From an uncultured Verrucomicrobia subdivision 3 bacterium (GTDB taxonomy: Bacteria > Verrucomicrobiota > Verrucomicrobiia > Limisphaerales > UBA11358): 35,341 bases of DNA. The stretch is taken from the NCBI GenBank assembly GCA_903835255.1, contig CAILMI010000045.1, positions 1-35,341 on the forward strand, written 5' to 3'. This document shows, piece by piece, positions 7,615 through 34,868 of this stretch; positions within the stretch are counted from its first letter, which is position 1, and the number at the start of each line of letters is the position of its first letter. The translations under genes were made by a program, and so were the position numbers. The notes under the pieces are model-generated. The model was not told the DNA's origin. It made no database searches and saw only the letters and a program-made list of their open reading frames with translations.

Positions 7615-8370
7615 ATGTTTCGACCCTGCATTGACCTGCATGATGGCAAAGTGAAGCAAATCGTCGGAGGCACGCTGGGCGAGGCTGGCTTGCGCACGAA
7701 TTTTGTCTCGGAGAAGCCGGCGGCGTGGTTCGCCGATCGCTACAAACAGGACGGCCTTTACGGCGGACACGTCATCCGTCTGGGCCCGGGCAACGATGAT
7801 GAGGCGCGTTCGGCTTTGGCCGCGTTTCCTGGGGGGCTGCAAATCGGCGGAGGCATCACGGGCCAAAACGCCCGGGAATGGATCGAGGCCGGAGCGTCGC
7901 ACGTGATTGTCACGAGCTGGATTTTTAAGGACGGCGGTGTGGAGTGGCAGCGGCTGGAGACGCTGGTTCAGGCCATCGGCAAGGAGCGTCTGGTGGTGGA
8001 TTTGAGCTGTCGCCGGCGCGGCGGGCAGTCCTTCGTGGTCACCGACCGCTGGCAGAAATTCACCGACCTCGCCATCACCGCCGAAACGCTGGGCCGATTT
8101 TCCCGCAGCTGTGCCGAGTTCTTGGTTCATGCCGTGGATGTGGAGGGGCTTTGCCAGGGCATCGACCGCGAACTGGTTGAGCAGCTGGGGCAGGAGTCGC
8201 CTCTGCCCGTCACCTACGCTGGCGGGGCTAATGCCTTGTCCGATCTGGAGGAGGTCGCGCGCCTGGGGCAGGGGAGGGTGGATCTGACCATCGGTTCGGC
8301 GCTGGATATTTTCGGAGGGCGCGGGGTGCGCTATGCCGACTGCGTGGCCTTCAATCGTCGGCCCAAATAA
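7615..8370 (+). CDS. hisA: HisA, phosphoribosylformimino-AICAR-P isomerase, eukaryotic (HIS6) type
   Basis: The enzyme catalyses the Amadori isomerisation ProFAR to PRFAR, the fourth step of histidine synthesis, in the cytoplasm. The 251-residue (beta/alpha)8 barrel starts FRPCIDLHDGKVKQIVGG and continues with NFVSEKPA, DGLYGGHVIRLG, FPGGLQIGGGI, GASHVIVTSWIF, RLVVDLSC and VTDRWQKFTDL. These strings match yeast HIS6 and plant HISN3 much better than the usual bacterial HisA. The expected catalytic aspartates are D7 and D129 (VVDLS), and VTYAGGA is the C-terminal phosphate-binding loop. The gene stands alone, with no other his biosynthesis genes beside it, and its 3' end is 23 bases from the convergent Uma2 gene. 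The ATG at 7615 is the domain start. Confidence 0.9.
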   Translation: MFRPCIDLHDGKVKQIVGGTLGEAGLRTNFVSEKPAAWFADRYKQDGLYGGHVIRLGPGNDDEARSALAAFPGGLQIGGGITGQNAREWIEAGASHVIVTSWIFKDGGVEWQRLETLVQAIGKERLVVDLSCRRRGGQSFVVTDRWQKFTDLAITAETLGRFSRSCAEFLVHAVDVEGLCQGIDRELVEQLGQESPLPVTYAGGANALSDLEEVARLGQGRVDLTIGSALDIFGGRGVRYADCVAFNRRPK

Positions 8371-8393: not shown

Positions 8394-8870
8394 TCAGGCG
8401 GGCTCGGCAAAAAGCTCGGCGACCACAAATTGAAATTCGGGGATCAGCTTCTCAGACAGCACTTCGCTCCCGGCCAGGATTCCCTTGAGCATGAGGCCAA
8501 AGGGAGTGCTGTGATAGATCTCCACGTTGTCGTAGCGGGGGTCGATCATCCAAAGCCGCGGCACGCGGGCCTGTTCGTAGATTTCTTTTTTGATGACGGT
8601 GTCGGCGTGGTGGTCGCCGGTGTGGACAATCTCCACCGCCAGCCAGAGCCGGCCGGTGGCGGCCGTGACCAGCGCCAAATCCGGACACAGCGTGGTGGAC
8701 TGAGCGACGACGACCTTGCTCCGCGGCGCCAGCAGCCGGGTGCTGCCCACGTTGGCCACCCCTGCCGTCATGGCGGTATGCAGTCGCCCGCAAATCAATT
8801 CATGGCGCGGGCCGGGTGCGGTGCGGGGGAGGGTTCCGCCGCCCACTGTCTCCAGATAGTCATGGCTCAC
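8394..8870 (-). CDS. Uma2-family (DUF820) restriction endonuclease-like protein
   Basis: The product of about 158 residues has the PD-(D/E)XK layout of Uma2/DUF820 proteins. SHDYLETVGGG...RHELICGRL is followed by CPDLALV (Asp), LAVEIVHTGDHHADTVIKK (the ExV acidic strand) and YEQARVPRLWMIDPR. The cellular role of Uma2 proteins is not settled; they are common as single, often multicopy genes. The GTG at 8870 is taken as start because the family motif begins there. An in-frame ATG at 8978 would give 194 residues but would abut the rpsP start on the opposite strand. Between 8870 and 8978 the frame stays open without known motifs. The K of the usual ExK is not obvious, so activity is uncertain. 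Confidence 0.75.
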   Translation of the reverse strand: MSHDYLETVGGGTLPRTAPGPRHELICGRLHTAMTAGVANVGSTRLLAPRSKVVVAQSTTLCPDLALVTAATGRLWLAVEIVHTGDHHADTVIKKEIYEQARVPRLWMIDPRYDNVEIYHSTPFGLMLKGILAGSEVLSEKLIPEFQFVVAELFAEPA

Positions 8871-8978
8871 ACCGCCAGCAAACCAGCGATCCGTCCTCCG
8901 GGCAAGCGGCGTTTTCTCTAAAACAAGGCTTGCCAAATGCGCGGCAACTGATAGTTTCCGCGCTCTTTTGAAAAACAT

Positions 8979-32787: not shown

Positions 32788-33759
32788 TCAGGGGATGTTC
32801 AGCAGCGCCTTGACGTCCGGTTTGTCGAGCGCGTCTCGGGTGACGAGGGTGACGCCGGTGTCGATTTTCTTTTCCACCGGTTTGCCACGGATGGCCTGAG
32901 CGACCGCCTTGACGCCTTCATAGCCCATCTTGTAGGGGTTCTGCACAACCAGCGCGTCAATCGCCCCGGCTTTTAACCCGTCCAAAAGGGCGGGGGAGGC
33001 ATCAAAGCCGACCATTTTGATTTCCGTGCGGTGCTGGCTTTGCAGGGCCTGCAAGGTTCCGATAGCGGTGGATTCGTTGCAGGCAAAAAACCCCTGCACA
33101 TCCGTGTTGCGCGTTAAGATGTCCTCGGCGGCCTGCAGAGCCGTCTCGACCGTGTCCTGTCCGTATTTGCTATCGGCGATTTTTATTCCGGGGAATTCTT
33201 TTTGCGTGGTTTCGATGAAGCCGTTTTCCCGGTCGGTGGTGGAAGCGGATCCCGGGGCGTATTTCATCACCAGCACATTTCCCCTGCCGTTGAGGATTTT
33301 CCCCATGCGCCGCGCGGCCAGCACGCCGCCCAGATAATTGTCGGTCGCCGCATAGGTGAGATAGTTGTCGGAAGCGACGGCCGAGTCCACTATAGCGCAG
33401 GGGATTTTCAGGCTGGCGAGTTTTTCAACCGAGGGCGCAAGGGATTCCCGGTCCAGCGGCGCCAGAATGACGCCATCCACTTTTTGCGCGATGACATCCT
33501 CGATGATTTGAATCTGCCGCTCGCGATCCCCCTCCCGCTCTGGGCCGATCCACTGGATGTTGCAGCCAAATTCGCTGCCAGCCTTCTCCGCCCCGGACTT
33601 GAGCGATTGCCAATAGACGTGGGTCGTGCCTTTGGGAATGACGGCAAGGGTGGGCTTGGTTTCTGCTATGGCAGATTTTTGGGCGTGCTCATTGCCGCAG
33701 CCGGTTAAAAAGACCAGGCCGATAAGTGCGGAGACAATGGTGGGATATTTTTTTTCCAT
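32788..33759 (-). CDS. Sugar ABC transporter substrate-binding lipoprotein, copy 1 (RbsB-like)
   Basis: The 323-residue protein starts with a lipoprotein signal, LIGLVFLTGC with Cys21, and would be anchored outside the inner membrane. The mature part is a Peripla_BP_4-type sugar-binding protein: AVIPKGTTHVYWQSLKSG, DVIAQKVDGVILAPLD, DNYLGGVLAARRMG, GSASTTDRENGF, and ALVVQNPYKMGYEGVKAVA. It is about three-quarters identical by eye to the neighbouring copy 2, including a 64-base DNA stretch that is exactly the same (32900-32963 and 33886-33949). The copies are 14 bases apart. The ligand is unknown; the adjacent isomerase-like gene suggests a pentose or 6-deoxyhexose. Confidence 0.93.
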   Translation of the reverse strand: MEKKYPTIVSALIGLVFLTGCGNEHAQKSAIAETKPTLAVIPKGTTHVYWQSLKSGAEKAGSEFGCNIQWIGPEREGDRERQIQIIEDVIAQKVDGVILAPLDRESLAPSVEKLASLKIPCAIVDSAVASDNYLTYAATDNYLGGVLAARRMGKILNGRGNVLVMKYAPGSASTTDRENGFIETTQKEFPGIKIADSKYGQDTVETALQAAEDILTRNTDVQGFFACNESTAIGTLQALQSQHRTEIKMVGFDASPALLDGLKAGAIDALVVQNPYKMGYEGVKAVAQAIRGKPVEKKIDTGVTLVTRDALDKPDVKALLNIP

Positions 33760-33773
33760 GGGGGACAGAAATC

Positions 33774-34754
33774 TTACTGGATGTTGAGCAGGGTTTTGAT
33801 TTCAGGTCTGTCGAGCGCGGGACGGGTGACAACTTCCACGCCGGTGTCGATCTTCTTTTCCACCGGCCGGCCTTGGATGGCTTGGGCGACCGCCTTGACG
33901 CCTTCATAGCCCATCTTGTAGGGGTTCTGCACAACCAGCGCGTCAATCGACCCGGCCTGCAACCCGTCCAACAAAGCCTTTTCCGCATCGAAGCCGACCA
34001 TCTTGATCTCGGGCCGGTTCTGGCTTTGCAGCGCCTGGAACGCAGCGACGGCGGTGGGGGCGTTGCAGGCATAAAAGCCCTGCACGTTCTTGTTCTTGGT
34101 CAGCATGTCCTCGGCAGCCTGGAGCGCCGTCTCCACTGTGTCCTGCCCGTATTTGCTGTCCACAATCGTCATCCCGGGGAATTCCTTCTGGATCGTTTCG
34201 ATGAACCCATTCTCGCGGTCGGTGGTGGAGGCCGAGCCGGGAACGTATTTGAGGACAAGGAGGTTTCCCTTGCCGCCCAGAATTTCGCCCATGCGCCGCG
34301 CGGCCAGCACGCCGCCCTGGTAATTGTCGGTGGCCGCAAAGGTGGTGTATTTGTCCGTGGCCACCGCTGAATCGATGATGGCGCAGGGAATGTTCATGCT
34401 GGCCAGCTTTTCCACTGACGGCACGAGCGCATTCTTGTCCAGGGGCGCGAGCACCAAGCCGTCCACTTTTTGCACGATGAAATCCTCCACGATCTGGATC
34501 TGGCGTTCGCGGTCGGTCTCGCGCTCCGGGCCGTTCCATTGGATCTGGTAGCCGAATTCCTTGCCGGCGGCTTCGGCGCCCGCCTTGACGGATTGCCAGT
34601 AAATATGCGTGGTGCCCTTGGGGATGACCGCAATGGTGTGTTGGACCGGCGCGGCGGGCGCGCTTTCGGAAGGCTTTTGATTGCAGCCGGTGCCGAGCGC
34701 TAGGCCAATGACGATGAACGCATTCGCCTGAAGTAATTTGATGGATTTGGTCAT
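33774..34754 (-). CDS. Sugar ABC transporter substrate-binding protein, copy 2 (RbsB-like)
   Basis: The 326-residue product is the first gene of the minus-strand transport cluster. Its N-terminus has a signal-like hydrophobic run, NAFIVIGLALGTGC, with a probable lipid-attachment cysteine at 24; the lipobox is slightly off, having Gly at -3. The mature domain has the same motifs as copy 1 (VIPKGTTHIYWQSVKAGAEA, DGLVLAPLDKNALVPS, DNYQGGVLAARRMG) and differs mainly in surface positions and at ligand-facing stretches such as CNAPTAVAAFQAL versus CNESTAIGTLQAL. The ATG at 34754 is chosen because the signal sequence begins there; the frame is open to 34844. Tandem duplication is the simplest origin. 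Confidence 0.92.
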   Translation of the reverse strand: MTKSIKLLQANAFIVIGLALGTGCNQKPSESAPAAPVQHTIAVIPKGTTHIYWQSVKAGAEAAGKEFGYQIQWNGPERETDRERQIQIVEDFIVQKVDGLVLAPLDKNALVPSVEKLASMNIPCAIIDSAVATDKYTTFAATDNYQGGVLAARRMGEILGGKGNLLVLKYVPGSASTTDRENGFIETIQKEFPGMTIVDSKYGQDTVETALQAAEDMLTKNKNVQGFYACNAPTAVAAFQALQSQNRPEIKMVGFDAEKALLDGLQAGSIDALVVQNPYKMGYEGVKAVAQAIQGRPVEKKIDTGVEVVTRPALDRPEIKTLLNIQ

Positions 34755-34868
34755 GGGGCGATTATGAATTTTTACATTGCGGTTGGCAATTTTTAACTCC
34801 GGAATTGCGATGAGTACCCCTCCTCTGTTAAAAAACATTCCCATGTCCCGGAATCCTCATCCCAAAGT
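34755..34868. promoter_or_regulatory. Divergent promoter region of the sugar uptake cluster and isomerase gene
   Basis: This AT-richer 114-base spacer must hold the promoters of copy 2 of the binding protein (minus) and the isomerase-like gene (plus). An inverted repeat ATTGC-GGTTG-GCAAT lies at 34776-34790, and ATTGC recurs in GGAATTGCGATG just downstream. A shared operator for a sugar-responsive repressor is possible, but no regulator gene is seen in the window. Confidence 0.35.

Follow-up and report, generated by a model that had tools for sequence, protein, structure and literature searches.

The gene at positions 7615-8370 of the window (the whole stretch of 35,341 nucleotides that was analysed, from an uncultured Verrucomicrobia subdivision 3 bacterium) is predicted to encode a HisA of the eukaryotic (HIS6/HISN3) type, here called hisA_euk, and there is nothing unusual about its membership of this family, which is widespread in bacteria. 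It is very probable that this is the only 5'-ProFAR isomerase of the organism, and that the gene replaces canonical hisA and has been inherited within its order. For the eukaryotic enzymes themselves, the leading reading of the sequences would be a bacterial source of the gene, at least in the case of yeast HIS6.

The family assignment of the protein is confirmed far beyond chance. The open reading frame has an ATG start and a product of 251 amino acids, which scores 369.6 bits against the NCBIfam model TIGR02129 hisA_euk (curated cut-off 229.3), residues 2-248 covering positions 3-255 of the 255 of the profile and hence its full length. It fails the models of canonical hisA (TIGR00007; 72.2 bits vs a cut-off of 228.95) and of hisF (TIGR00735; 26.8 bits vs 294.55), and in Pfam it is a His_biosynth protein. 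Among PDB sequences searched with phmmer, the top match is Medicago HISN3 (9fcf/9fcg; 3.7e-82) and the second distinct sequence is yeast HIS6 (2agk; 4.5e-72), the third reaching only 3.5e-13. Similarly, the predicted structure (mean pLDDT 93.7) is closest to 9fcg (Z 40.6), 9fcf (39.8) and 2agk (34.4), and the next chain stands at 27.2. A preliminary description made from the letters alone had assigned the protein to the HIS6/HISN3 family on three strings, VTDRWQKF among them; all three are present in the translation, and the best matches do not lie with ordinary bacterial HisA or HisF, both of which remain far under cut-off. The coordinates of the gene, of its diagnostic codons and of one neighbour are collected in Table 1.

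Table 1. Positions in the window of the predicted hisA_euk gene, its diagnostic codons and the adjacent gene.
Feature	Position	Strand	Basis and remarks
Predicted hisA, eukaryotic (HIS6/HISN3) type; putative ProFAR isomerase, EC 5.3.1.16	7615..8370	+	Profile, PDB match, predicted fold
Asp7 codon	7633..7635	+	In alignment, matches catalytic Asp7 of E. coli HisA as well as the D57N site of 9fcf
Asp129-Leu130-Ser131 (DLS) codons	7999..8007	+	Ser at canonical Asp129; Asp two residues earlier
VTDRW subtype motif	8038..8052	+	Common to Medicago HISN3; alignment
His172 codon	8128..8130	+	At canonical Thr171; H in 90/90 of the type, T in 10/10 canonical
Glu177 codon	8143..8145	+	At canonical Asp176; E in 90/90 of the type, D in 10/10 canonical
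Uma2-family putative endonuclease gene	8394-8978	-	Pfam; separates hisA from the rpsP-trmD cluster and is oppositely oriented

Of the positions that matter in canonical HisA, namely D7, D129, T171 and D176, the type keeps the first and differs at the other three. D7N and D176A mutants of canonical HisA are named in PDB titles. In an alignment of 90 type members with a small canonical set of ten proteins (E. coli HisA and nine from the source's phylum), Asp7 is kept in 89 of the 90 and in all ten, the exception being Medicago 9fcf, in which PDB titles name an engineered D57N. D129 and S131 occur in 90/90 type members vs A/G/S and D, respectively, in 10/10 canonical HisA. The pairing of E. coli D129/T171/D176 with S131/H172/E177 is the same in three MAFFT modes, and the register of the DLS residues agrees in phmmer and hhalign. 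The full set of D7, D129, S131, H172 and E177 is found in the protein described here, in yeast HIS6 and, except for the engineered D57N, in Medicago HISN3.

The family is a branch of the HisA/HisF (beta-alpha)8 barrels, and the protein would act at the fourth step of histidine biosynthesis, in which the aminoaldose ring of ProFAR would be opened and tautomerised to PrFAR by an Amadori rearrangement, with Asp7 as a probable catalytic residue. At the remaining canonical active-site positions a fixed set, Asp129/Ser131, His172 and Glu177, would have taken over with presumably catalytic roles, of which that of Glu177 as general acid is a guess. PrFAR would then pass to a separate HisF/HisH synthase, HisH being presumed present. 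The fixed differences allow a clean comparison of two ways in which a single fold carries out this Amadori rearrangement.

Gene order bears on this function as well. In a survey by tblastn with the E. coli His proteins and the organism's own HisF, another his gene was found near hisA_euk at 7 of 82 loci (80 from GTDB and 2 viral), some of them truncated where the contig stops. At four of the 82, in a Paenibacillus MAG, two Cohnella and one Bacillota MAG, hisA_euk is part of a his cluster and is flanked there by hisH and hisF, an interval that is also the position of canonical hisA in E. coli, and at 3 of the 7 his-linked loci a HisC-like aminotransferase is the only his gene nearby. No other his gene was seen at 75 of the 82, some of which end at contig ends, and the cluster support thus comes from four Bacillota records only. 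In Roseburia, according to one report, hisA is separated from the rest of the his genes and neighbours glutamine synthetase (PMC7478625). The position between hisH and hisF, together with the mutual exclusion of hisA_euk and canonical hisA described below, suggests that hisA_euk does the HisA step. The three altered active-site positions might instead be taken as the mark of a paralogue with another function in an organism without a ProFAR isomerase; this is very improbable, since the same residues occur in yeast HIS6 and in Medicago HISN3, the latter crystallised with ProFAR and PrFAR according to the titles of 9fcf and 9fcg, and since both the mutual exclusion and the four his-cluster positions speak against it.

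In the window, the neighbours of hisA_euk are genes for an AraC-type regulator, a weakly Crp-like regulator and a Uma2-family protein, and rpsP, trmD and hisS. It is thus not part of a his cluster, as the earlier term "lone gene" implied. Elsewhere in the window, at 32788-34844 on the minus strand, two clearly similar adjacent substrate-binding proteins of a sugar-type ABC system (named by eye) lie beside a permease and are likely a tandem duplication. The genome assembly consists of 70 contigs and is 97.5% complete with 0.08% contamination. A canonical hisA elsewhere in it, for which the preliminary description had proposed a search, was not found over the TIGR00007 cut-off in this 97.5% complete assembly; the stronger of the two TIGR00007 matches is HisF (TIGR00735, 357 bits, over cut-off), a separate gene. 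No further his gene was recognised by eye among open reading frames of at least 150 amino acids within about 4 kb on each side of this hisF, and hisD is present over cut-off. With no canonical hisA over cut-off and with hisF and hisD present, the organism most likely has no ProFAR isomerase gene other than that at 7615-8370, as judged from its sequence.

The same exclusion holds across the source's phylum, of which 387 genomes were sampled: hisA_euk passes its cut-off in 159 and canonical hisA in 196 (205 at E < 1e-50). In hand-compiled lists of 159 genomes with hisA_euk and 205 with canonical hisA at E < 1e-50, none of the 387 carried both, whereas about 80 would be expected to do so by chance from the cut-off counts. 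This pattern suggests that hisA_euk replaces canonical hisA rather than adds to it; the presence of one type does not account for every absence of the other, 23 of the 387 genomes having neither. Both types occur within single families (11 hisA_euk and 25 canonical in f5; 30 and 4 in f3) and even within genera: in g17, hisA_euk is found in G140 and G292 and canonical hisA in G085 and G260, and in g3 four genomes (G051, G184, G286 and G298) have the canonical gene and other genomes hisA_euk. Such mixtures point to replacement of one type by the other, or to sorting of an old pair, several times. One genome of the phylum (G157:C42:48040-50726) carries two equal-scoring hisA_euk copies about 1.2 kb apart.

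Within the source's order, 51 of 52 genomes (the organism's own, 7 of the same genus and 43 others of the order) have a match to yeast HIS6 at E <= 1e-40, the same-order genome G537 being the exception, a count which assumes that the 155 other non-matching genomes belong to other orders, as their sorting suggests. hisA_euk thus appears to be the normal hisA of the order. That this verrucomicrobium recently acquired the gene from a fungus or plant might seem to be favoured by the eukaryotic identity of the best solved-structure matches and by the isolated position of the gene. The only members of the type that the search of solved structures found are two eukaryotic proteins, however, so the best structure match had to be eukaryotic. 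Furthermore, the nearest sequences in the trees are bacteria of the same genus and order, at least 583 GTDB contig stretches encode relatives (of which the best 80 were examined), and the order carries the gene almost throughout; recent transfer from a eukaryote is thereby ruled out for practical purposes and we give it next to no credence. In the 90-row tree, which includes HIS6, HISN3 and Fibrobacter-type rows, the protein is joined to the same-genus sequence L139 at 100/94, its identity to any tree relative reaches 72% at best (L153), and in the first tree the named records that group closest with it are a Verrucomicrobiae MAG and a Verrucomicrobiales MAG (96/87), on which basis the source's class is taken to be Verrucomicrobiae. 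Inheritance within the order, probably vertical, would account for these observations.

The family extends well beyond this phylum. A scan of GTDB contigs gave at least 595 stretches, of which at least 583 encode relatives, and the best 80 of these, ranked by likeness to Medicago HISN3 and with taxa read from record titles or NCBI ranks, include Desulfobacterota, Armatimonadota, Latescibacterota, Gemmatimonadota, Lachnospiraceae, Paenibacillaceae, Endozoicomonas, Scalindua, Nitrospina, Nitrospirota, Myxococcota and Fibrobacterota. Of 80 genomes from the phylum to which the Fibrobacteria genome G585 belongs, 73 pass the hisA_euk cut-off and a single one, without a hisA_euk match, passes that of canonical hisA. 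Coverage is sparser in the order of Kineothrix (11 of 116 genomes) and in the phylum of Desulfobacter (15 of 198). Among 42 records of named loci with hisA_euk (40 genomes and 2 viral), canonical hisA accompanies it in one, the Nitrospina MAG G581, which may be a binning artefact. Second copies were seen in G585 (Fibrobacteria GUT77), and in G978, where the second copy has one TAG inside.

Plasmid and viral-contig records gave no sign of a general mobile vehicle, with one hisA_euk record among 72,556 plasmids (NZ_CP054609.1:434684-435421, a 509 kb plasmid of Paenibacillus cellulosilyticus) and two confirmed viral-contig records. The first of these, a 14 kb IMG/VR contig (L127:4992-5768), holds a Fibrobacter-like hisA_euk amid mutually similar open reading frames of about 100-130 amino acids, many of which begin with MI and end with LP; four that were tested have no Pfam match, and the contig is either a host stretch called viral or carries a phage metabolic gene. 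On the second, a 72 kb IMG/VR contig (L128:3377-5741), groEL is directly followed by hisA_euk and a lytic transglycosylase gene, and this hisA_euk groups with the Fibrobacter-type rows in the 90-row tree.

The comment to TIGR02129 reportedly calls the type rare in bacteria and attributes a Fibrobacter example to lateral transfer. Given the 159 of 387 and 73 of 80 genomes above and the many further phyla, the rarity that the preliminary description had repeated no longer holds, and the wider bacterial clade on which it had speculated exists; the view of hisA_euk as a rare bacterial oddity is out of date. The family name and that comment suggest an odd eukaryotic gene in a bacterium, and the data reverse that. 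In practice, annotators whose searches are limited to canonical hisA could take organisms for histidine auxotrophs that are not. In the accessible open-access literature no naming of hisA_euk as widespread in bacteria was found, and the parts available of four papers (PMC7478625, PMC1963479, PMC10138114 and PMC7284861) do not describe the bacterial group as such.

The relationship of the bacterial and eukaryotic proteins was examined in trees built from overlapping samples. A starting set of 127 sequences was thinned at 80% identity to 113, and 14 alternate Bacillota rows were dropped for the first tree, in which the canonical HisA and HisF outgroup branches are very long and whose root was not used. 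Ten outgroup rows were then exchanged for eight others (97-row tree), ten Fibrobacterota rows were added (107-row alignment), and 17 rows were removed, namely three near-copies, ten Bacillota, L052, L024, L011 and L029 (90-row tree); bootstrap values were not fully settled in the 97-row and 90-row trees. Sequences from outside the phylum were chosen by likeness to Medicago, and eukaryotes are represented by two PDB sequences, yeast HIS6 and Medicago HISN3. Paenibacillaceae rows were lost in thinning, and two were restored in a quick tree without the diagnostic columns, from which L128 was omitted.

Yeast HIS6 is repeatedly found among bacteria of the source's class. It is 58.8% identical to L007 (family f2), Medicago HISN3 is 60% identical to several bacteria, and the two eukaryotic proteins share 45% identity, which is below the best bacterial identity of either. 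In the first tree, when rooted, yeast and the two virus-labelled contigs form a 20-row set with f2, f3, f5, f8 and f20 at a support of 100/99, and the 22-row counterpart in the 97-row tree has 99/94. The 90-row tree places yeast with f2, f3, f5 and f20 in a set of 15 rows (95/92), within a 27-row set that adds f8, the Fibrobacter-type rows and the two virus-labelled contigs (99/90). Yeast has a one-residue insert in the loop after LF that recurs in 18 of the 106 other rows, each of them from f2, f3, f5, f8 or f20; L026 is an f3 row without it. The motif VAMN(R/K)W or a close variant (VAMDRW, VATNRW) occurs, besides yeast, in 20 of 132 proteins, all from the same five families; four of the 132 sequences fit no motif class. 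In the Fibrobacter-type rows the motif takes a related form (IATNRW, IAINRW or IAVNRW), and the protein described here belongs to the other subtype, with VTDRW and no insert. The insert and motif were noticed after the first tree, so they count as support and not as a test made blind; once the columns that hold them are taken out, yeast still falls in the same 15-row set at SH-aLRT 93, where 95 is the threshold for a star.

These results favour a bacterial source at least for HIS6, in part as the preliminary description had suggested: the nesting of yeast, the insert and the motif support it, and the placement of HISN3 varies. Medicago stands beside a set of Armatimonadota, Latescibacterota and Desulfobacter, or with that set and L086 and L118, at 81/26, 82/64 and 90/78 in three trees, and it moved to another place in the quick tree from which the diagnostic columns were left out. 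A single clade of yeast and Medicago is rejected (AU p = 0.0041 without outgroup; p = 0.043 with the distant outgroup) in a test that was chosen after the first tree, the group itself being a natural one. Vertical descent from one ancient paralogue, with a eukaryotic common ancestor and no bacterial donor for fungi, is consistent with the breadth of the family, the unfixed root on very long outgroup branches, the two eukaryotic sequences sampled and the missing star for the yeast set once the diagnostic columns are removed. It is an unlikely account, though one with some standing, against which weigh both rejections of the yeast-Medicago clade, the insert and VAMN(R/K)W motif common to yeast and source-class families, and the recovery of the same set without those columns.

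The opposite direction, from an early fungus to the bacteria of f2, f3, f5, f8 and f20 (families of the source's class and not of its order), would gain from the facts that a single fungal sequence cannot show direction and that yeast stands beside f3 at only 81/73. We consider it distinctly improbable, for f93 (of the source's order), the Fibrobacter-type rows and f8 all fall outside the 15-row yeast set under a midpoint root, which places yeast as nested among bacteria. The direction of transfer nevertheless depends on this nesting in midpoint-rooted trees with one fungal sequence, which could mislead. The suggestion that the Fibrobacter gene came from plants was rejected, as a tree that unites Medicago with seven Fibrobacter-type rows and the two virus-labelled contigs in one clade is rejected (p = 0.0083); the Fibrobacter example of the preliminary description thus does not group with the plant enzyme in the rows taken to be Fibrobacter. 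These seven rows come from the Fibrobacteria phylum, their genus being deduced from very high model scores. The named Fibrobacterota rows L086 and L118 do share the weak set with Medicago (90/78, 90-row tree), and for them a plant link is possible.

Returning to a bacterial source, fungal HIS6 and plant HISN3 may have come from separate bacteria. The fuller account, in which HIS6 derives from a Verrucomicrobiae-type bacterium and HISN3 from a different branch, the Ser131/His172/Glu177 enzyme being a bacterial invention that repeatedly swapped with canonical hisA, even within genera, is put forward tentatively, at a little under an even chance. If true, eukaryotes would have obtained their enzyme for step 4 of histidine synthesis from bacteria on two or more occasions. 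No link of yeast HIS6 to Verrucomicrobia was found in the accessible open-access literature. A 2024 paper on the structure of plant HISN3 and a 2012 study of non-cyanobacterial plastid amino-acid enzymes may already cover part of this ground.

Compared with known systems, the protein is most like HISN3 of Medicago truncatula (9fcf, 9fcg), with 55% identity over the full length, a predicted model that superposes at Z about 40 and 1.2 A, the VTDRW subtype, no insert after LF and the same active-site set. Plant HISN3 proteins are plastid-targeted, and the Medicago enzyme is longer by about 4 residues following position 20 and by 2 around position 60. HIS6 of Saccharomyces cerevisiae (2agk) shares the family and the active-site set at Z 34.4 and differs in VAMNKW and the one-residue insert, as do other families of the source's class. 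The Fibrobacter-type enzymes (genus deduced) belong to the same family and lie on the yeast side of the tree rather than with the plant enzyme, whereas they differ from the present protein in IATNRW, IAINRW or IAVNRW and in about 5-7 extra residues before the motif. Canonical E. coli HisA (TIGR00007) has the same barrel and the conserved Asp7, but it is only about 20% identical by hhalign and carries D129, T171 and D176 where the protein described here has S131, H172 and E177.
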